Positions 13,989-30,319 of a stretch of 41,296 nt of DNA are shown piece after piece. A program made the position numbers and the translations under genes. Positions within the stretch are counted from its first letter, which is position 1. Each line of letters starts with the position of its first letter. Below the pieces are notes generated by a model. The model was not told the origin of the DNA. It did no database searches and saw nothing but the letters and a program-made list of their open reading frames with translations. Source of the DNA: Clostridiales bacterium (GTDB lineage: Bacteria; Bacillota; Clostridia; Christensenellales; Aristaeellaceae); contig SVGU01000011.1 of assembly GCA_015056155.1 (NCBI GenBank), forward strand, positions 1-41,296. The letters run 5' to 3'.

Positions 13989-15119
13989 TCACCTCGCCGT
14001 CAGCACCACACCCGCTTCGGGCAGGATCGTATCGGGCAGCACCTCGTCCGTCAGGGTGAGGGTATCGGGCAGCTTGTCCACGCCGATCATCTCCTCCACC
14101 GTGATGGTGAAGTCCATGCTGGCCGTCATGCTCATGCCACCGGGGAGCTTGCTGCCAGCCTCGTCGCGCATCTGCAGCTCGTACAGCTCATACGCGCTCT
14201 CCGGCACGTCCGCATAGCTCATCTCGTAGGTGAAGGTCAGGTAGGCACCGGTGACGTAACGCACCGCATCCACCCGCACCAGTTTATGACCGCCGATGAC
14301 CGTCTCCTTTTCTGGGAAGTAGGTGCGCTCCTCCAGCACCGGGCAGACGGGGATGGCGACGACCTGGTCGTAATCACGCCAGCGCTCCGTGCCCTCGCCC
14401 GTCGCCGGGTCCGCCAGCGCCACGTCCAGGCACATGGGCAGGTTCAGCACATCGCCCACCCGTTCGGTGTCCAGCATGGACATGCAGAAGAACGTCACGC
14501 TGTTGTCCTCATTGTACAGCACTTCGACCATCATAGCGCCGTCGAGGAGCTCGAACTGCATATCGTGGTCGGCGCTCACCCGGTACAGGGGCTGATTCAG
14601 CTGCGCCGCTGCCTCCAGCCAGGTGGCATCCTCGGACACGCCCAGACGGGCGGCCAGCGCACGGCCGTTCTCGCCGTTGGCGCGAATGGGATCGACCGGA
14701 TCGCTGGTGTTCGCACCGGTGATCAGCGCCGCGCTGCCGTCGGTCGTGCGGACATGAACGGCGCTGATGGCGATGTGCCCGTCGGTCAGCAGCTCGTTGG
14801 CCGTGAAGGTCAGCGGGCCGACCTCCCAGACGGCAGGCTCACTGACCGTCATCCGCTCATACACGCCCTCGGGCACGCCAGTCGTGCCGTGCCATTCGCC
14901 GAAGAAATCCCGCCAGCCCGTCAGCCCGCCGGCCGCGAAGGCTACCGCCATCATGCTTACGATGATCAGCGCGGCGATCAGCACCGCGCGGTAAGATGCA
15001 CGCTTCATTTCATTTTCCTCCCTGACGGAGCGGGCGGCGTTCATCAGCGCGGCGTGGCATGCTTCCGGCTCAGGGCGGAAGGCGCCGCGCAGGTTCAGGT
15101 TATCCAGATCGCGCTTCAT
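13989..15119 (-). CDS. Membrane anti-sigma factor, partner of the repeat-bearing ECF sigma
   Basis: A 376-residue single-pass protein: cytosolic residues 1-42 (with the helix FRPEPEACHAALMNAARSV), one transmembrane helix at about 45-64, and a large extracytoplasmic part of about 310 residues rich in strands. The layout matches the DUF4179-type anti-sigma factors of Clostridia. Its ATG overlaps the stop of the ECF sigma gene (ATGA), so the pair is coupled. The extracytoplasmic part has no motif I can name. The short cytosolic segment is where the sigma factor should bind. Confidence 0.75.
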   Translation of the reverse strand: MKRDLDNLNLRGAFRPEPEACHAALMNAARSVREENEMKRASYRAVLIAALIIVSMMAVAFAAGGLTGWRDFFGEWHGTTGVPEGVYERMTVSEPAVWEVGPLTFTANELLTDGHIAISAVHVRTTDGSAALITGANTSDPVDPIRANGENGRALAARLGVSEDATWLEAAAQLNQPLYRVSADHDMQFELLDGAMMVEVLYNEDNSVTFFCMSMLDTERVGDVLNLPMCLDVALADPATGEGTERWRDYDQVVAIPVCPVLEERTYFPEKETVIGGHKLVRVDAVRYVTGAYLTFTYEMSYADVPESAYELYELQMRDEAGSKLPGGMSMTASMDFTITVEEMIGVDKLPDTLTLTDEVLPDTILPEAGVVLTAR

Positions 15120-15853
15120 TCTGCATCCAGCTCCTTTCCCGGCCCTCCCCGCTGATTCTCAGCGCGGCGGGCTAAGTTCGGCGATTGCCTGCAATCGCTC
15201 TCACTTACTGGACTGTCGTCCAGCTCTTTTCCCGGCCCTCCCCGCTGATTCTCAGCGCGGCGGGCTAAGTTCGGCGATTGCCTGCAATCGCTCTCACTTA
15301 CTGGACTGTCGTCCAGCTCCTTTCCCGGCCCTCCCCGCTGATTCTCAGCGTGGCGGGCTAAGTTCGGCGATTGCCTGCAATCACTCTCACTTACTGGACT
15401 ATCGTCCAGCTCTTTTCGCAGTTCTCCTTTGGCGCGGTGGATCCGCCCGCGCACCGTTGCCACGGGGAGATGCAGCGCCTCGGCCGCCTCCTGATAGGTC
15501 ATGCCCTCCGAATAGCACAGCACCAGCGGCAGCCGGAGCTTCTCAGGCATCCGGGCGAGCGCCAGCGCCAGCGTCAGATCCGGCGGCGGGCTTTGCAGCT
15601 CGCGGATCTCCTCGATGGACACGATGCGCCGGCGCTTTTTCTGTGCGTCATAGCACGTATTGATGAGGATCCGCGTGATCCACGTGCGGAAGAACCGCTT
15701 CTCCCGCAGCGAATGCCGCTTCTCCCACGCTTTGAGGGCTGCGTCCTGCAGCGCGTCGCGGCAGGCATCGTCGTCATGCAGGATGGTATAGGCCACGCGG
15801 TACATCAGCCCACTGTGGGCTTCCAGCTCCTGTACGAAGAAATCCTTGTCCAT
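15116..15853 (-). CDS. ECF sigma factor with three 31-residue C-terminal repeats
   Basis: A 245-residue protein whose first 150 residues are a normal ECF sigma factor: region 2 with YTILHDDDACRDALQDAALKAW and KRFFRTWITRILINTCYD, region 4 with LPLVLCYSEGMTYQEAAEAL and the helix VATVRGRIHRAKGELRKEL. After KELDD (148-151) the frame continues through three nearly identical 31-residue units (DSPVSESDCRQSPNLAR, then AENQRGGPGKEL) and ends LDAE at 245. ECF sigma factors usually stop near residue 150-180, so the tail is an expansion. The tail is polar and probably disordered. The start at 15853 has GAGGAG 8 nt upstream; 15877 is longer. The stop overlaps the anti-sigma gene. Confidence 0.9.
   Translation of the reverse strand: MDKDFFVQELEAHSGLMYRVAYTILHDDDACRDALQDAALKAWEKRHSLREKRFFRTWITRILINTCYDAQKKRRRIVSIEEIRELQSPPPDLTLALALARMPEKLRLPLVLCYSEGMTYQEAAEALHLPVATVRGRIHRAKGELRKELDDSPVSESDCRQSPNLARHAENQRGGPGKELDDSPVSESDCRQSPNLARRAENQRGGPGKELDDSPVSESDCRQSPNLARRAENQRGGPGKELDAE
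15127..15405. repeat. Three tandem 93-bp palindrome-rich repeats inside the sigma gene
   Basis: Units start at 15127, 15220 and 15313, each exactly 93 bp (31 codons), with a truncated copy of the junction (CCAGCTCTTTTCGC) at 15406. They differ by only a few bases. Each unit contains three inverted repeats: CTGGAC-TGTC-GTCCAG, GCGATTGC-CT-GCAATCGC and CGCTGA-TTC-TCAGCG. The copy farthest upstream in the gene has three changes that weaken these palindromes. The high identity indicates recent duplication, and the palindromes suggest an inserted repeat element that kept the frame. Confidence 0.93.
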
Positions 15854-16038: not shown

Positions 16039-18753
16039 TTACCACGGAATCTCCTGGCCCGTGATCTTCAGCCAGTGCTTGCGGATGTCGTTCTGATGCC
16101 GCACGCCGTTCTTGGGGTCGTTCTTCTGGCACTCGCTCATCGTGCGGGGGAAGTGCACGCACAGATGGCCCTCGAAGTTGTTGTCGCTGATCGCACCGGA
16201 CAGGTGGGGCATGGAATGCATCGACGCGATGCACCAGATGCCGTTGGGCAACCGGACATACACGGGCTTCTCCGACCAGGAGAACTTGCCGCCCCAGGCT
16301 GCCTTCATGATCGCGGTATCGTTGGCGGTCAGCGGCTCGGAGTCCGCATGGCGGCCGAGGGAGTAGAAGCGCAGATAGAAGCTGGAGCCGCTGGAGGGCT
16401 CGTACACCAGCACGACCTGGCCGCTCTTGACGGTGGGCTTGATGTCGTCGAACCAGTGCAGGAGCTTCACCTGGGAAACCGCCGGGCCGCCGCCGTTGCC
16501 GGTCAGGCCGCCGCTGGAGGTGGTGTCCTCGGGCAGGGCGGTGTCGCCCGTCACGCAGGAGCCGGAGTACAGCTTCGTCTGGGTCTGCACGCCCGCGACG
16601 CCGTCCGCCGTCAGGCCGTTGCGCTTCTGGAACGCCACCACCGCAGCGTAGGTCGCTTCGTCATAGTAGCCGGTGATGGCCACGTTGTACTTGAGGGTGG
16701 AGAGCATCTGCTGCAGGCGGATGACCGCGTTGCCGGTGGAGCCCATCCGCAGCGTGGTGTACGTCTCGCTCTGCCAGCCGTCGCCCGCCTGGATGCCGTT
16801 GGCGGGGATCGCGTCCACGGAGAACAGCACCTCGTAGGTCGCCTGCGTGGCCATGCCGGTGGCGGACATGCCGTTCTTGATCTGGAAGGCACGCAGCGCC
16901 AGCTCGGTGTTGTTGCCGAACTTGCCGTCCACCTTGTCATCCAGATAGCCCAGGTCCTTCAGGCGCTGCTGGAGGTCCTTCACGTCATCGCCGGAGCAGC
17001 CGTTGTACAGGCTGCGGTCCGGATACAGGGAGCTGGGCGGAGGCGTGGTGACCGTGGTGCCCTGCGCGGGCAGCGCATCGTCGGAATAGAGCTTCTTGTA
17101 GGTCTTGGGACCCGCAATGCCGTCCGCAGACAGGCCGTTGCGCAGCTGGAACGCCGCCACGGCCGCGCCGGTCGCGCTGCCGAACACGCCGTCCGCCTTG
17201 CCGGACAGGTAGCCCAGCGCCATCAGACGAACCTGCAGCAGCACCACGTCATTGCCCTTGGAGCCAAGGCGAAGGGTCATGCCGGGGGTCACCTGCGCTT
17301 CGGGCGTGGGGGTGGGAGTGGGCGTCGAGTCGCCGCTGTACGCGGGGATCGCAGCGGCGGAATACAGCCGGTCCGCGGTGTTGGGGCCGACCCGGCCGTC
17401 CACGGTCAGGCTGTTGCGCGCCTGGAAGAAACGGACCGCCTCGGTGGTGCCGGTGCCGTACACGCCGTCGATGGAGCCGGCATAGTAGCCCAGCGTGCTC
17501 AGGCGCTGCTGGACAGACTTGACCTCGTCGCCCTCATCGCCGGGGCGCAGGACCCTGGTGGGCTTGCCCGTGGGGATGGGATCCGGCGGGGGCGTGATGG
17601 AGCTGCCGTTGTCGATGGCGCTGCCGGAATAGAGCACCATGATGGTGTTGGGGCCGCACACGCCGTCCACGGTCAGCTTGTTGCGGGCCTGGAAGGCCTT
17701 CACGGCCTCGATGGTGCCGGAGCCGTACTTGCCGTCGAGCTTGCCGGCATAGTAGCCCAGCTGCTGCAGGCGGGCCTGCACAGCCGCCACGTCCTCGCCC
17801 TCCATGCCTTCGCGGAGGGTGCGGTCATCGGAAGGGACGCTGGGCGCCAGCTCCTCGGAGCCCAGCGCGCCGTCGGAGAAGAGCACCTGCGCGGTCTTGC
17901 TGCCGACCTTGCCGTCCACCGTCAGGCCGTTGTTCTTCTGGAATGCACGCACAGCCGCTTCCGTTCCGGAGCCGTACTGGCCGTCGGAAGCGCCGGTGTA
18001 GTAGTGCAGCTCCTTCAGGCGGTCCTGGGTGTACTGCACGTCAAGGCCGGACATGCCGGGGCGCAGGATGCGCTGGGGCACGCCATACTTGAGGTCTTCA
18101 TCCTCCGCAGCCGGGGGATTGGTAGCGATGGGGCCGCTGATGGGCTTGCCGTTCTCGTCAAAGAAGCTCTCCAGCTTCTGCAGCGTCAGGGGGCCAGCCT
18201 TGCCGTCCGCCTCCAGACCCACGATCTTCTGGAACTCCTTCACCGCCGCATAGGTGGACGAGCCGAAAACGCCGTCCGCCCGGGACACGTCAAAGCCCAG
18301 CGCGATCAGCGCATTCTGCAGGATGCGCACGCGGCTGGAGGACGCGCCGAAGACCAGCTTGGCATAGTTGCCGCCGAACAGGCCCTTCTTCGCCGAAGAG
18401 GTGCTGCCGGAGCCGGAGCTGCCCGTGCCGGAGGCGTCCTCGGCCGTGGCGATCTCGCTGATCTTGATGCCCGTGAGGAGCAGGAGCTGATACTGCGTCG
18501 CCGCGCCTGCCTTACCGTCGGCGATCAGGCCGATCTTGCTCTGGAACGCGCGCACGGCACGCTCCGTCGCCTGACCGTACTCACCGTCGATCGGGCCGGT
18601 ATAATAGCCCTGCAACATCAGCGCCTCCTGCAGGCGTTCGACCGCGTCGCCGGTGCTGTTGCGGCGCAGGATCTCCGCCATGCCGCTGCCTGCCATCAGC
18701 ATCACAGCCGCCAGCGCCAGCGCGATCACGCGCACGATTCGCTTCATCATCAT
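16039..18753 (-). CDS. Secreted protein with eight peptidoglycan-binding repeats and a Cys/His C-terminal domain
   Basis: A 904-residue exported protein. The signal peptide (VIALALAAVMLMAGSGMA) is followed by eight PG_binding_1 domains of about 65 residues, each with a pattern like LQxxLxxLGYYxGxxDGxYG and a closing LTVDGxxGxxT. Linkers are Thr/Pro-rich in places (TPTPTPTP). The last 150 residues form a different domain with a cluster of possible catalytic residues: His846, His850, GHLCVHF (His863, Cys865, His867) and His886. This recalls Cys/His peptidoglycan enzymes, but it lacks the SHGCIR motif of L,D-transpeptidases. It probably binds and perhaps remodels or cross-links the wall. The start has AGGAGG 8 nt upstream. 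It stands alone between its own promoter and terminator. Confidence 0.88.
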   Translation of the reverse strand: MMMKRIVRVIALALAAVMLMAGSGMAEILRRNSTGDAVERLQEALMLQGYYTGPIDGEYGQATERAVRAFQSKIGLIADGKAGAATQYQLLLLTGIKISEIATAEDASGTGSSGSGSTSSAKKGLFGGNYAKLVFGASSSRVRILQNALIALGFDVSRADGVFGSSTYAAVKEFQKIVGLEADGKAGPLTLQKLESFFDENGKPISGPIATNPPAAEDEDLKYGVPQRILRPGMSGLDVQYTQDRLKELHYYTGASDGQYGSGTEAAVRAFQKNNGLTVDGKVGSKTAQVLFSDGALGSEELAPSVPSDDRTLREGMEGEDVAAVQARLQQLGYYAGKLDGKYGSGTIEAVKAFQARNKLTVDGVCGPNTIMVLYSGSAIDNGSSITPPPDPIPTGKPTRVLRPGDEGDEVKSVQQRLSTLGYYAGSIDGVYGTGTTEAVRFFQARNSLTVDGRVGPNTADRLYSAAAIPAYSGDSTPTPTPTPEAQVTPGMTLRLGSKGNDVVLLQVRLMALGYLSGKADGVFGSATGAAVAAFQLRNGLSADGIAGPKTYKKLYSDDALPAQGTTVTTPPPSSLYPDRSLYNGCSGDDVKDLQQRLKDLGYLDDKVDGKFGNNTELALRAFQIKNGMSATGMATQATYEVLFSVDAIPANGIQAGDGWQSETYTTLRMGSTGNAVIRLQQMLSTLKYNVAITGYYDEATYAAVVAFQKRNGLTADGVAGVQTQTKLYSGSCVTGDTALPEDTTSSGGLTGNGGGPAVSQVKLLHWFDDIKPTVKSGQVVLVYEPSSGSSFYLRFYSLGRHADSEPLTANDTAIMKAAWGGKFSWSEKPVYVRLPNGIWCIASMHSMPHLSGAISDNNFEGHLCVHFPRTMSECQKNDPKNGVRHQNDIRKHWLKITGQEIPW

Positions 18754-18833
18754 GTTCCTTCCCTCCTGAGTCATCCGTACTCGGACAGCCAGCGGCCGTC
18801 CATTCTTTTGGGAGCGACAGATACTTAACTTAT

Positions 18834-26826: not shown

Positions 26827-27861
26827 TCAGCGGCGCATGCCGAATCCGCCGTAGTCCGTGTAGGCGCCGGCCTGCGCGCTGCGTGCCGCACGCTGACCAT
26901 AGGCGGGAGCGAAGTCCTCCTGCCGGCTCTTTGCCGCGAAGCCGCCGAAGCGGTTCTCCTGATAGCCGCGGCTGGAACCGGGCCAGCGGCGCTCGATATC
27001 CTCGTTGCTCATGTGCAGCAGGCTGTCAAAGGGGATCACCTGCATCTGCCTGGGCGTGATGAGGTAGATCATCTTGCCGGAGATGCGCACGAAATTCTGA
27101 TTCATCGCATATGCCGCGCCGAAGAGCAGATCCATGCAGCGGTCCGCCTCCATCACGTCGGCGATCTGCTCGGCGTTGACGATCATCGCCTCGGAGTTCT
27201 GCATGAACTCGATCAGACGGTAGCAGCTCGCCACGCCGGTGATCTGCGCCACGCGCAGCACCATCTTGTACGCGCTGCCCTCGTCGGACACATAGGTGCC
27301 GGGGAAATAGCGCAGGCCGTCATCGGCCTTCTGCTGGGGCTGCGGCTGGGGCGCGGGCTGCTGCACCGGGGGCTGCCAGCCGGTAGACTGCGGGGGGATC
27401 TGCTGCTGCGGGAAGGCAGGCTGCCAGCCGGTCTGCTGCATGGGCTGCTGGGGCTGCACAGGGTTTTGCATGCGGGGCTGCCAGCCGGTCTGCTGCGCAG
27501 GCTGCTGGGGCGCCGCGGGACGCTGCATCGCCGGACCGGCCTGACGGGCATGGGGCTGGGGGGGCGTCATCGGGCGGCCCTGCGGCATCGTCTGCTGCTG
27601 GGGCGGCATCGTGCCCGTCTGTCCGCCGACCTGCTGGAACTGCTGCATCACCGTCGCGTCCACGCCGCCGGGCATCATGCCGGAAAAGCCCGTCGCCGGA
27701 TGATCCGGCTGCAGATTCTCCGCCGGCTTGCGCTTGGTGATCTTGGGCTGATAGCCGCTGAAGCCGCCGTTGGCGCGGTTGGACATCAGCTGGGGCTGCT
27801 CGCCCTCGCTGCGGGTCTTCACCTTCTGCCAAAGCCCCTGTACCTTATCCATGAAAGCCAT
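26827..27861 (-). CDS. sepF: Cell division protein SepF with extended Pro/Gln linker
   Basis: A 344-residue protein. SepF bundles FtsZ and anchors the Z ring to membrane. The N-terminal 20 residues (MAFMDKVQGLWQKVKTRSE) look like the amphipathic membrane-binding helix. Residues about 60-180 are a low-complexity Pro/Gln-rich linker in which TGWQP recurs three times. The SepF core at about 185-280 contains IVNAEQIADVMEADRCMDL and GAAYAMNQNFVRISGKMIYL. A Gly/Arg/Ala-rich tail follows. Typical SepF has about 150-200 residues, so the linker is unusual. The gene is between yggS and yggT. The start at 27861 has GGAAGG about 9 nt upstream. Confidence 0.88.
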   Translation of the reverse strand: MAFMDKVQGLWQKVKTRSEGEQPQLMSNRANGGFSGYQPKITKRKPAENLQPDHPATGFSGMMPGGVDATVMQQFQQVGGQTGTMPPQQQTMPQGRPMTPPQPHARQAGPAMQRPAAPQQPAQQTGWQPRMQNPVQPQQPMQQTGWQPAFPQQQIPPQSTGWQPPVQQPAPQPQPQQKADDGLRYFPGTYVSDEGSAYKMVLRVAQITGVASCYRLIEFMQNSEAMIVNAEQIADVMEADRCMDLLFGAAYAMNQNFVRISGKMIYLITPRQMQVIPFDSLLHMSNEDIERRWPGSSRGYQENRFGGFAAKSRQEDFAPAYGQRAARSAQAGAYTDYGGFGMRR

Positions 27862-27904: not shown

Positions 27905-28600
27905 TCACTTCGAATAGTCTCTTGCGCCCAGGAGCGCGCTGCCGATGCGCACCATCGTTGCGCCGTGGCGCGCCGCCAGCAGGTAATCGCCGGACATGCC
28001 CATGGAGAGCTCCTCCATCGCCACGCCCTGCGGCGCCTCCTCGCGCATGCGCTCAAACAGCGTCCGCATGTCCGCAAAAAGGCCGCCCAGATACGCCTGG
28101 TCGGGCGTGTTGGGCATCACGGCCATCAGGCCGCGCACGGACAGGCCGGGCATGTGCCGCACCGTTTCCAGGAACGGCCGCACCTCCTCCGGCGCCATGC
28201 CGCCCTTCTGCTCCTCCCCCGCCGGGGAGACCTGCACCAGCACCGGCACAGTCAGGCCGCGCCGGCACGCCTGCCGGTCGATCTCCTGCGCCAGGGGCAG
28301 CCGGTCGACCGATTGGATCATGCATACCTGATCTATTATATACTTAACTTTGTTGGTTTGCAACCGTCCGATCAGGTGAATATCAAACTTTTCGGCGAGC
28401 AGGGGCAGCTTTTCGACGATCTCCTGCACGCGGTTTTCGCCGATGTCCCGCACGCCCATCTCCGCCAGCGGGAGGATCTCCTCCGCCGGGTGGGTCTTGG
28501 TGACGGCGATCACCTTCGGCGGGGCATAGCGGCCCTCCGAGGCCCCGGCCAGCGCAGTCCGGATCGACTCCAGCCGCGCCCGCAGTTCCTGAGCCTGCAT
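27905..28600 (-). CDS. yggS: YggS-family PLP homeostasis protein
   Basis: A 231-residue alanine-racemase-fold protein that binds pyridoxal phosphate and controls free PLP and amino acid balance. The PLP lysine is Lys35 in VIAVTKTHPAEE; other conserved segments are MGVRDIGENRVQEI, HLIGRLQTNKVKYI and LSMGMSGDYLLAARHGATMVRIG. The start at 28600 is preferred: AAGGAG is 8 nt upstream, while the ATG at 28606 touches it. It is the ylmE position, upstream of sepF. Confidence 0.94.
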   Translation of the reverse strand: MQAQELRARLESIRTALAGASEGRYAPPKVIAVTKTHPAEEILPLAEMGVRDIGENRVQEIVEKLPLLAEKFDIHLIGRLQTNKVKYIIDQVCMIQSVDRLPLAQEIDRQACRRGLTVPVLVQVSPAGEEQKGGMAPEEVRPFLETVRHMPGLSVRGLMAVMPNTPDQAYLGGLFADMRTLFERMREEAPQGVAMEELSMGMSGDYLLAARHGATMVRIGSALLGARDYSK

Positions 28601-28645: not shown

Positions 28646-30319
28646 TCAGAACAGGCGCACCGTCATCTCCTCGAACAGGAGGCCCTGCTGGATGGCCTGG
28701 AAATAGGCATAGCCATCCTTATAATGGATCACGTTGACCGGGATGAAGGACTCCGTCGAGCCCTCGACGACGACCACGCCCTTCATGCCGTCCTGCTCGT
28801 AGATGGCGCGTTCGTTCACCATCAGCGTGGACATGCTTTCACCCAGAACCGCCTCGCAGGTGCGCATGTACATCACCGGCTCCACCGGCCCCTGCACCTT
28901 CAGGCGAACAAGCAGCTCGCCGCCGGAGCGGGTGAAGCTGACGACCTGCGCGGTGACGGTCGTGTTCTCGAACCGCTCCAGGCTCAGCTCATACGTCTCG
29001 CCGTTCACGGGGTTCCAGGACGTGTTGTCGGAGAGGAACAGGATGTACCACTCGTTGTCCCGCACCATGCGGTAGATGGTCGTCTTGCTCTTCTGCAGCG
29101 TGGTCTGCTCCGGCTTTTTGCCATTGATCATCGCGCGGACCTCGCTGGGCTCGAAGGACGTGTAGGTATTGGCGTTGAGGGTGTACTCATAGCCGTCGGA
29201 ATAGAAGCTGACCAGCGCCTCGCCGGTGGCCGTGTACAGCTTCGTCCAGCTGTCGATGCGCTGCGTCTGGGAGCGCTGATCGTCCTGCATGCGGGAGAAG
29301 CGCTGATCCGAGGCGTACTTCTGCTCCAGATGCTGCTGGCGCTCCGACACCTTCTGGGTCAGCTGCGCCTCCAGGTTCGCCAGCGAGCCCTGACCGCCGC
29401 TGACCAGCTCCCGCACCTGCGTCACCAGACTCATCAGCTCCGTATCGAGCCGGGTGAGCTTGCCGTCGTAGATCGTGTTGGAGTCGATCAGCTTCTTCTG
29501 ATAGTCGCGGATCTCCGCACGGTACTGCTGCAGCAGGTTGATCGCCGAGGCGCTGTAGCCGGTGGAATACACGCGGCACACGGGCGTGTTGCGGTAGACC
29601 TTGCTGCCCTCCTTCGCGTCGTAGGCGATGGAGGTGACGCCCTCTGCGTCATAGGGCGACTCATTGCGGACGATCAGGCAGTCGCCGGCGTGGTTGGCCG
29701 ACAGGGAGCCGGAGGCGATCACGCCATAGCGGGCCGCCTCGGGCGCATAGGTCGAATACAGGTACCACACCGCAAAGCCCACGACCGCCACCAGCGCCAC
29801 CACGATCAGCGCGATGTCCGAAGCCGTCATGCGGCGCTTCATCGGCTTGCGCTGCTGGGGCGGGAAGCCCATGGGCGGCTGCTCCGGCGCGGCCTGACTG
29901 AACAGATGCTGATAGCCGTCCTCCGCGTAGGGCTGCTGATACGCGCCGGGATCGGCATAGGGCGCCTGGGACATCCCGGGATCCGCATAGGGCTGCTGCG
30001 CGCCGTAGCCGGTGTTCATATCGGTATACTGCGCCGTCGTGCCGAAGCTCTCCGCAGCGTTGCGGTAGCCCTGCTGGGGCATCGTCGCATAGGGGTCCGC
30101 CGGTGCGCCGTAGCCCTGCTGGGGCATCGCCGCATAGGGATCCGCCGGTACGCCGTAGCCCTGCTGGGGCGTCGTTGCATAGGGATCCGCCGGTACGCCG
30201 TAGCCCTGCTGGGGCGTCGCCGCATAGGGGTCCGCCGGTGCGCCGTAGCCCGGATTCTGCTGTCCGGCAGGGTACTGCGGAGGATATCCGCCGCCCGGCT
30301 GGTTGTACTGGTTATCCAT
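28646..30319 (-). CDS. HlyD-like membrane protein with N-terminal 15-residue repeats
   Basis: A 557-residue protein. Residues 1-165 are a Tyr/Pro/Gln/Gly-rich cytosolic tail; four units of GYGxPADPYAxxPQQ (about 24-83) repeat every 15 residues. A transmembrane helix lies at 168-189. The outer part has a biotinyl-lipoyl-like segment (VIASGSLSANHAGDCLIVRNES), a coiled-coil region (about 260-350), and a second beta-rich part, the layout of HlyD-type adaptors. Clostridia often carry such a protein next to sepF. No ABC transporter is adjacent, so it is unlikely to be a plain secretion adaptor; a link to division or wall is inference. It follows the sigma gene. Confidence 0.75.
   Translation of the reverse strand: MDNQYNQPGGGYPPQYPAGQQNPGYGAPADPYAATPQQGYGVPADPYATTPQQGYGVPADPYAAMPQQGYGAPADPYATMPQQGYRNAAESFGTTAQYTDMNTGYGAQQPYADPGMSQAPYADPGAYQQPYAEDGYQHLFSQAAPEQPPMGFPPQQRKPMKRRMTASDIALIVVALVAVVGFAVWYLYSTYAPEAARYGVIASGSLSANHAGDCLIVRNESPYDAEGVTSIAYDAKEGSKVYRNTPVCRVYSTGYSASAINLLQQYRAEIRDYQKKLIDSNTIYDGKLTRLDTELMSLVTQVRELVSGGQGSLANLEAQLTQKVSERQQHLEQKYASDQRFSRMQDDQRSQTQRIDSWTKLYTATGEALVSFYSDGYEYTLNANTYTSFEPSEVRAMINGKKPEQTTLQKSKTTIYRMVRDNEWYILFLSDNTSWNPVNGETYELSLERFENTTVTAQVVSFTRSGGELLVRLKVQGPVEPVMYMRTCEAVLGESMSTLMVNERAIYEQDGMKGVVVVEGSTESFIPVNVIHYKDGYAYFQAIQQGLLFEEMTVRLF
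30066..30245. repeat. Four tandem 45-bp repeats in the HlyD-like gene
   Basis: Units begin at 30066, 30111, 30156 and 30201 (minus-strand coding), exactly 45 bp or 15 codons each, with a partial fifth copy at 30246. Differences are mostly synonymous or swap Ala/Thr and Val/Ala, so the protein repeat is conserved. The unit number may vary between strains. Confidence 0.92.

Follow-up and report, generated by a model that had tools for sequence, protein, structure and literature searches.

Three in-frame copies of a dispersed palindromic element in an ECF sigma factor gene of a Clostridiales bacterium

How did an ECF sigma factor gene come to carry, within its own reading frame, three nearly identical 93-bp palindromic units? 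The question is raised by the 41,296-nt stretch of contig SVGU01000011.1 analysed here (the window), and the features concerned are collected in Table 1. Tandem Repeats Finder, run on the window, reported an array at 15126-15417 with a period of 93, 3.1 copies and 96% matches, and identity to the reference unit at 15127-15219 is 100, 99 and 97% for the three units, although their number at this gene rests on one draft assembly (158 contigs, 74% complete). Each unit encodes 31 residues, so that the sigma factor gains 3 x 31, and the frame stays open through all three to give a protein of 245 aa, just as the initial annotation had described. The start at 15853 is backed by the peptide MDKDFF, which is conserved in sister species, and the Pfam sigma-factor regions 2 and 4 are confined to residues 11-147. 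The 12-bp repeat AAARGAGCTGGA occurs four times in the window, with one copy preceding the first unit and one following each of the three; it had been supposed that GELRKELD is copied at each junction, and KELD, encoded by this repeat, does recur, but the whole GELRKELD does not. Elsewhere in the window, a 911-aa protein with repeated peptidoglycan-binding domains is encoded at 16039-18774 (minus strand) and ends 185 bp ahead of the sigma start; a 45-bp unit is repeated in tandem at 30065-30251 (4.2 copies, 92% matches), and weaker tandem arrays lie at 27419-27528 and 28410-28455.

Table 1. Positions in the window of the sigma factor gene, its repeat units and the adjoining gene
Feature	Position	Strand	Basis
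ECF sigma factor CDS with three element copies in frame, 245 aa + stop	15116..15853	-	ORF, Pfam
Ancestral sigma part, residues 1-150, ...RKELD	15404..15853	-	69-87% identity to six orthologues ending KELDAE
Unit 1, first in CDS	15313..15405	-	covariance-model match 15325-15413, 81.3 bits
Unit 2	15220..15312	-	covariance-model match 15232-15320, 84.8 bits
Unit 3, last in CDS	15127..15219	-	covariance-model match 15139-15227, 82.9 bits
Original KELD-coding stretch AAAAGAGCTGGA	15405..15416	-	sequence; sisters have AAAGGAGCTGGATGC once
12-bp direct repeat AAARGAGCTGGA, further copies	15312-15323, 15219-15230, 15126-15137	-	sequence
Ancestral sigma gene end (rest of D, A, E, stop)	15116..15126	-	sister orthologues
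AAAGGAG, likely Shine-Dalgarno of downstream gene, adjoining last unit	15131..15137	-	sequence
Downstream gene, 376 aa, start overlapping sigma stop (ATGA)	13989..15119	-	putative anti-sigma by position only

The insertion point could be read from sister species. A search for the sigma gene covered 18 genus genomes, and the six closest orthologues (in G005, G012, G007, G006, G004 and G016; 69-87% identity) lack the tail and end in KELDAE followed by the stop. In an alignment with five of these six, where one row (L179) is two residues short, the 93 extra residues of the window fall exactly between D and A. Since the sisters end in KELDAE, the insertion lies two residues before the ancestral end; the initial annotation had taken GELRKELD for the original end. 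At DNA level the sisters read AAAGGAGCTGGATGC[ACG]GAATGA, where an ATG overlapping the sigma stop likewise follows, and the KELD stretch likely doubles as the Shine-Dalgarno sequence of the next gene. The earlier view that the expansion is recent agrees with the unit identity of 97-99% and with the absence of the tail from all six of these orthologues.

The unit is a member of a dispersed palindromic family whose elements measure about 87 bp and form three hairpins. In its own genome the best other match of the 93-bp DNA reached only E 0.8, and DNA matches to the unit at E<=0.01 were present in 10 of the 18 genus genomes, its own included, many of them spanning only unit positions 15-53. A covariance model built from 19 copies aligned as a three-hairpin element detected it in 16 of the 18 genomes (E<=0.01), with at least 142 copies in G002, then 91, 49, 30, 26, 25 and 20 in others, 13 in the genome of the window, a single match in three genomes and none in two; at most 150 candidates were scored in each genome. 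At E<=0.05 the genome of the window has 14 copies, i.e., 11 divergent members beyond the sigma units, two of them adjacent. Under stricter filters, with 15-17 candidates per genome scored, the element was found at E<=1e-4 in 30 of the 250 genomes of the family, 15 of these 30 being from this genus, and in 10 of its 50 genera, and in the class only one of 291 genomes was positive, which is the genome of the window itself. An exact core pattern matched 28 stretches from 13 metagenome-assembled genomes in a named genome collection, all titled Clostridia, Clostridiales, Eubacteriales or bacterium, and a goat, sheep or deer gut site appears in seven of the 13 titles. No Rfam family matched in the window, and none matched the element at E<=1 in 10 loci. 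Units are 78-101 bp long in the window and the 123 loci that the copy search took in, without duplicate loci and without the named-collection loci (L068-L095). This search gave 177 match rows, of which 164 were used in the site analysis; the 13 left out are seven from loci that duplicate others (L026, L030, L034), three weak opposite-strand matches (L025, L042, L019), L025 1399-1485, L041 and a cut match at L102 1-70. An ordinary minisatellite, arising by slippage of a chance palindrome within the sigma gene alone, would account for three near-identical tandem units and for an exact 93-bp DNA found only here in its own genome. However, copies that resemble the unit in both sequence and structure are present in 15 further genomes of the genus, and no ancestral copy exists in the sigma orthologues; the related copies across the genus refute this origin of the unit, and we regard the chance that it explains the locus as almost negligible, while slippage is a likely route for the step from one copy to three.

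Folding and covariation both point to a conserved hairpin structure. A single unit, folded as RNA, was more stable than all of 200 dinucleotide shuffles (z -4.25), and the 279-nt array gave z -9.45 as single-stranded DNA, in part because of its tandem repetition. The three inverted repeats, described earlier as perfect, do form hairpins above chance, but they are not perfect: a T:G stands in the central hairpin of the unit at 15313, and the third hairpin has imperfections. The 114 aligned copies gave 101 distinct rows, in which 98.3% of cells hold a standard pair against 81.5% in shuffles (0 of 500 as high); 19 of the 25 pairs show double changes, and doubly changed cells number 381, compared with 103 in shuffles, all of which lean toward structure, as the alignment was fitted to it and the cells are not independent events. 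One-sided changes that keep the pair account for 18 cells, unpaired positions for 42, and G-U pairs for only 24 of 2469 paired cells. Selection on RNA normally leaves many G-U intermediates. From the few G-U pairs beside so many double changes, we infer that the two arms of a stem change together at the DNA level, and this imbalance is relevant to the way in which the hairpin makes copies of itself. Pairing is about equally good in copies inside genes and in those elsewhere.

The 164 copies fall into 132 sites, 12 of which are arrays, and 99 sites were kept after 22 with similar flanks and 11 that were short or N-bearing had been dropped. A strict Shine-Dalgarno sequence and start codon follow within 45 nt of the 3' end of the element at 29 of these 99 sites, compared with 5 of 99 when the opposite side is taken and with 3.3% of random positions. 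Either of two patterns picks out 31 sites, and at 26 of these the Shine-Dalgarno starts 3-8 nt away from the element. The sigma site has the same kind of placement, with Shine-Dalgarno and start after the last unit. Moreover, the element precedes infC in two species and rpmI in two species, as named from their translated starts, while the sister locus L140 has no element before infC. At in-gene sites the 3' flank is purine-rich (0.60 versus 0.50 at random positions, P 0.013, n=14), and together with the Shine-Dalgarno placement we read this as a target preference. The arrangement at the sigma gene recurs at L021, where the upstream ORF continues across the element and stops shortly beyond it, as the next gene starts.

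The two 150-nt flanks of each site were scored by codon usage, with a classifier that had been trained on the loci and whose thresholds we chose ourselves. Both flanks were coding on one strand at 17 of the 99 sites, at least one flank was not clearly coding at 77, and five were too short. The two flanks lie in the same frame with no stop between them at 14 of the 17 sites, where about a third would be expected without a frame constraint, and the other three are gene junctions (L021, from alignment with L124; L009 and L097_2601, from a start codon in the flank); the set is modest, and surviving insertions are biased to tolerated ones. Seven in-gene copies are sense and seven antisense, and in-frame copies occur in four separate assemblies (G000, G002, G005 and G011). 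A frame could be assigned for 11 of the 14 in-gene copies, and 65 copies were anchored by a core motif. All seven assigned sense copies use the frame of the sigma tail and share a peptide like SPTSDSDCLQSPSVAS, and the sigma tail SPVSESDCRQSPNLA resembles SPTSDSDCLQSPSVA of other proteins. All four assigned antisense copies share one frame, whereas another antisense frame, open in 55 of the 65 anchored copies, is used by none of the four. The element is probably tolerated inside proteins because it can be stop-free in one sense frame and one antisense frame.

Comparison with known proteins places several of these copies inside conserved genes. In the UDP-galactopyranose mutase, query residues 12-299 and 332-407 align to residues 2-288 and 288-363 of 4mo2_B with no chain residue missing. 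In the beta-mannosidase of the genome of the window, 32 query residues stand against one residue of 6bye_A, and the insert is absent from 10 of 11 orthologues of the genus, while G016 has a short, different segment. This segment, SSAASAP in the G016 protein (L233), lies at the insertion site of the G000 element, and as an excision scar of the element it is only suggestive. The element lies within the TRAM_2 match of a RimO-like protein, where the structure alignment stops at it, within the ABC_tran match of an ABC exporter, and between the AIRS_C and GATase_5 matches of a PurL-like protein, at a site outside the solved-structure alignment. In a response regulator it ends at the start of the second Response_reg stretch, just past the LLDIMLPS segment, and the first such stretch was weak in one scan. 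Among 30 ORFs that span an element, 17 had no Pfam match at E 1e-5 (4/10, 6/10 and 7/10), several of them being the strand disfavoured by the classifier. One open frame at L012 of G002 (866-2830), with B12-binding, radical SAM and DUF4080 regions, contains three copies in both orientations. The dispersed family, the in-frame inserts in unrelated genes and the sister species without insert bear out the suggestion of a repeat element that spreads through genes.

These data also bear on whether the element is a functional RNA, in which a leader or intercistronic hairpin would control translation, the sigma tail would be a side effect, and the three units would tune the ratio of sigma factor to downstream product. 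The enrichment before Shine-Dalgarno sequences and start codons over random positions, the copies upstream of infC and rpmI, and the high pairing with double changes at most pairs are all in its favour. On the other hand, the in-gene copies occur equally in both orientations with hairpins about as intact, G-U pairs are scarce beside the doubly changed cells, which fits DNA hairpins better, and the sister L140 lacks the element before infC. On balance, we think such an RNA function unlikely as the explanation.

Insertion and change of tandem number both seem to occur within the genus. The orthologous genes at L018 and L099 carry elements at different positions, each without that of the other (L018 resembles an exo-beta-1,4-galactosidase, well below the NCBIfam cut-off), and the L099 site, with one unit in L099 and none in L018, holds two in a third species (L043); likewise, one unit lies upstream of rpmI in one species and two in another. 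Copy number thus differs at two orthologous sites. The element of L124 is missing in L021, where the neighbouring sequence differs and gives no exact junction, and the flanks of L127 and L150 are too far apart for comparison. Tandem arrays of 4 to 8 units, with a spacing of 89 to 106 bp depending on the array, were seen at L104, L107, L121, L160 and L102. Similar longer flanks surround the element at nine places in G004 (L162, L163, L165-L171), seven of them at contig ends, and a larger multicopy sequence seems to carry it there. Similar longer repeats of about 260-450 bp hold an element copy in G014, G013 and G006 (L038, L052, L152-L154, L174, L175), as does a second group of such length in G000 (L060, L063-L065). 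The many family copies at contig ends in G004 and the fragmented draft containing the window might raise the suspicion of an assembly or binning artefact, but single-base differences separate the units, the contig extends beyond the array in both directions and in-frame copies are present in each of the four assemblies, which makes an artefact highly improbable.

As for a mover, a RAYT/Y1 transposase was considered and rejected as a general one, with Y1_Tnp present in six of the 18 genomes and none in G002, which is 84% complete and has the most copies. The search for target-site duplication gave no clear signal: the shared flank string outside the element averaged 3.67 versus 3.71 in permuted pairs, and when the first 12 nt of the element were counted it was borderline (4.51 versus 4.27, the highest of 60 permutations being 4.52). 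The sigma site itself carries the 12-bp direct repeat. One core pattern had no exact match in viral contigs, one copy used as query had no match at E 1e-3 in plasmid and phage records, and neither a transposition event nor a partner enzyme was found.

As an alternative, the initial annotation had proposed a strain-variable tail that alters binding to an anti-sigma factor encoded downstream, for which no support was obtained. The tail is predicted to be unstructured (AlphaFold, pLDDT 30-41 in the tail blocks, mean 51.8); the prediction used an alignment of six sequences, so shallow that even the first sigma domain cannot be judged from it. The downstream gene has no Pfam match at E 0.01 and a single NCBIfam model below its cut-off, so that even the name 'anti-sigma' is unproven. 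A more general form of the idea, that the 93 residues are kept as an adaptive tail for changed regulation of the sigma factor, agrees with the frame being open through all three units; it is very unlikely, since the tail is predicted to be unstructured, is absent from the closest sister orthologues and resembles peptides in unrelated proteins. The tail is probably disordered and nearly neutral.

Taken together, we assume with a probability of roughly 0.85 that the sigma gene contains three tandem copies of a dispersed palindromic element, which was inserted at the KELD/Shine-Dalgarno stretch and expanded in tandem, and which belongs to a single family of uncultured gut Clostridia and most of all to this genus. 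The element would be a selfish one, presumably mobile, that settles beside Shine-Dalgarno-like purine tracts and survives in genes when it is in frame. At the sigma gene it entered the purine-rich AAAGGAGCTGGA, a stretch that encodes KELD and probably also serves the overlapping downstream gene as Shine-Dalgarno, and the single insertion probably became three units, most simply via slippage or unequal exchange between the KELD repeats. Entry at this stretch means that the sigma gene acquires a tail by reading through the element, and that the ribosome site of the downstream gene is preserved behind the last unit. A further step, which we put forward only tentatively and hold to be doubtful, is that the element represents a distinct class of mobile coding palindromes, with hairpins of single-stranded DNA whose arms are rewritten together, aimed at purine-rich Shine-Dalgarno-like sites and prone to tandem expansion. 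If true, blocks of about 30 residues are being added to protein ends or middles across a bacterial family.

Among known systems, the closest in kind are the Rickettsia palindromic elements (RPE), short palindromic repeats that are reported to lie between genes and in frame inside conserved genes (PMC10969869, PMC2229807, PMC3733652). Like them, the clostridial element is dispersed, forms stable stem-loops and occurs between genes as well as in frame in unrelated conserved genes. The host belongs to another phylum, however, and RPE have 105-146 bp and are modelled as long stem-loops, whereas the clostridial element has about 87 bp and three hairpins, is tandem at 12 of 132 sites, stands before Shine-Dalgarno and start at 29 of 99 and is read on both strands. 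RPE were compared by description and not by sequence, and we therefore class the element as alike in kind without assigning it to an RPE family. PARCEL shares in-frame tandem units with dyad symmetry in ORFs, but it is a 25-residue amphipathic motif of variable-number repeat ORFs (PMC2996958), while the unit here has 31 residues predicted to be disordered, lies in a sigma factor without any repeat-domain Pfam match and also occurs between genes. REP sequences are dispersed palindromes, some within ORFs, which are also reported in the free-living O. terrae and Thauera (PMC3733652). REP/RAYT units have 20-40 bp with a GTAG or CGTC tag at one end and are tied to a Y1 transposase; the clostridial units are 78-101 bp, many hold GTAG inside but not as an end tag, and they show no link with Y1 genes. 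Bacterial MITEs such as ERIC, Correia and RUP are small non-autonomous repeats, some fused in frame to ORFs (PMC2229807); for the clostridial element no clear target-site duplication was found, and its stem arms vary between copies yet stay paired. No account of an element of this kind in Clostridia turned up in a literature search of open-licence PubMed Central articles, which is a weak test. Palindromic elements in frame are best known in Rickettsia and Wolbachia (PMC2996958, PMC10969869), where intracellular life might explain their survival. A family in gut Clostridia with up to at least 142 copies per genome, in frame in genes for the UDP-galactopyranose mutase, the RimO-like and PurL-like proteins, the ABC exporter and the response regulator, offers many sister-species comparisons for tolerance tests; it would show that ordinary bacteria gain protein segments in this way on a larger scale, with in-frame hairpin DNA as an unusual route for adding new pieces to proteins.
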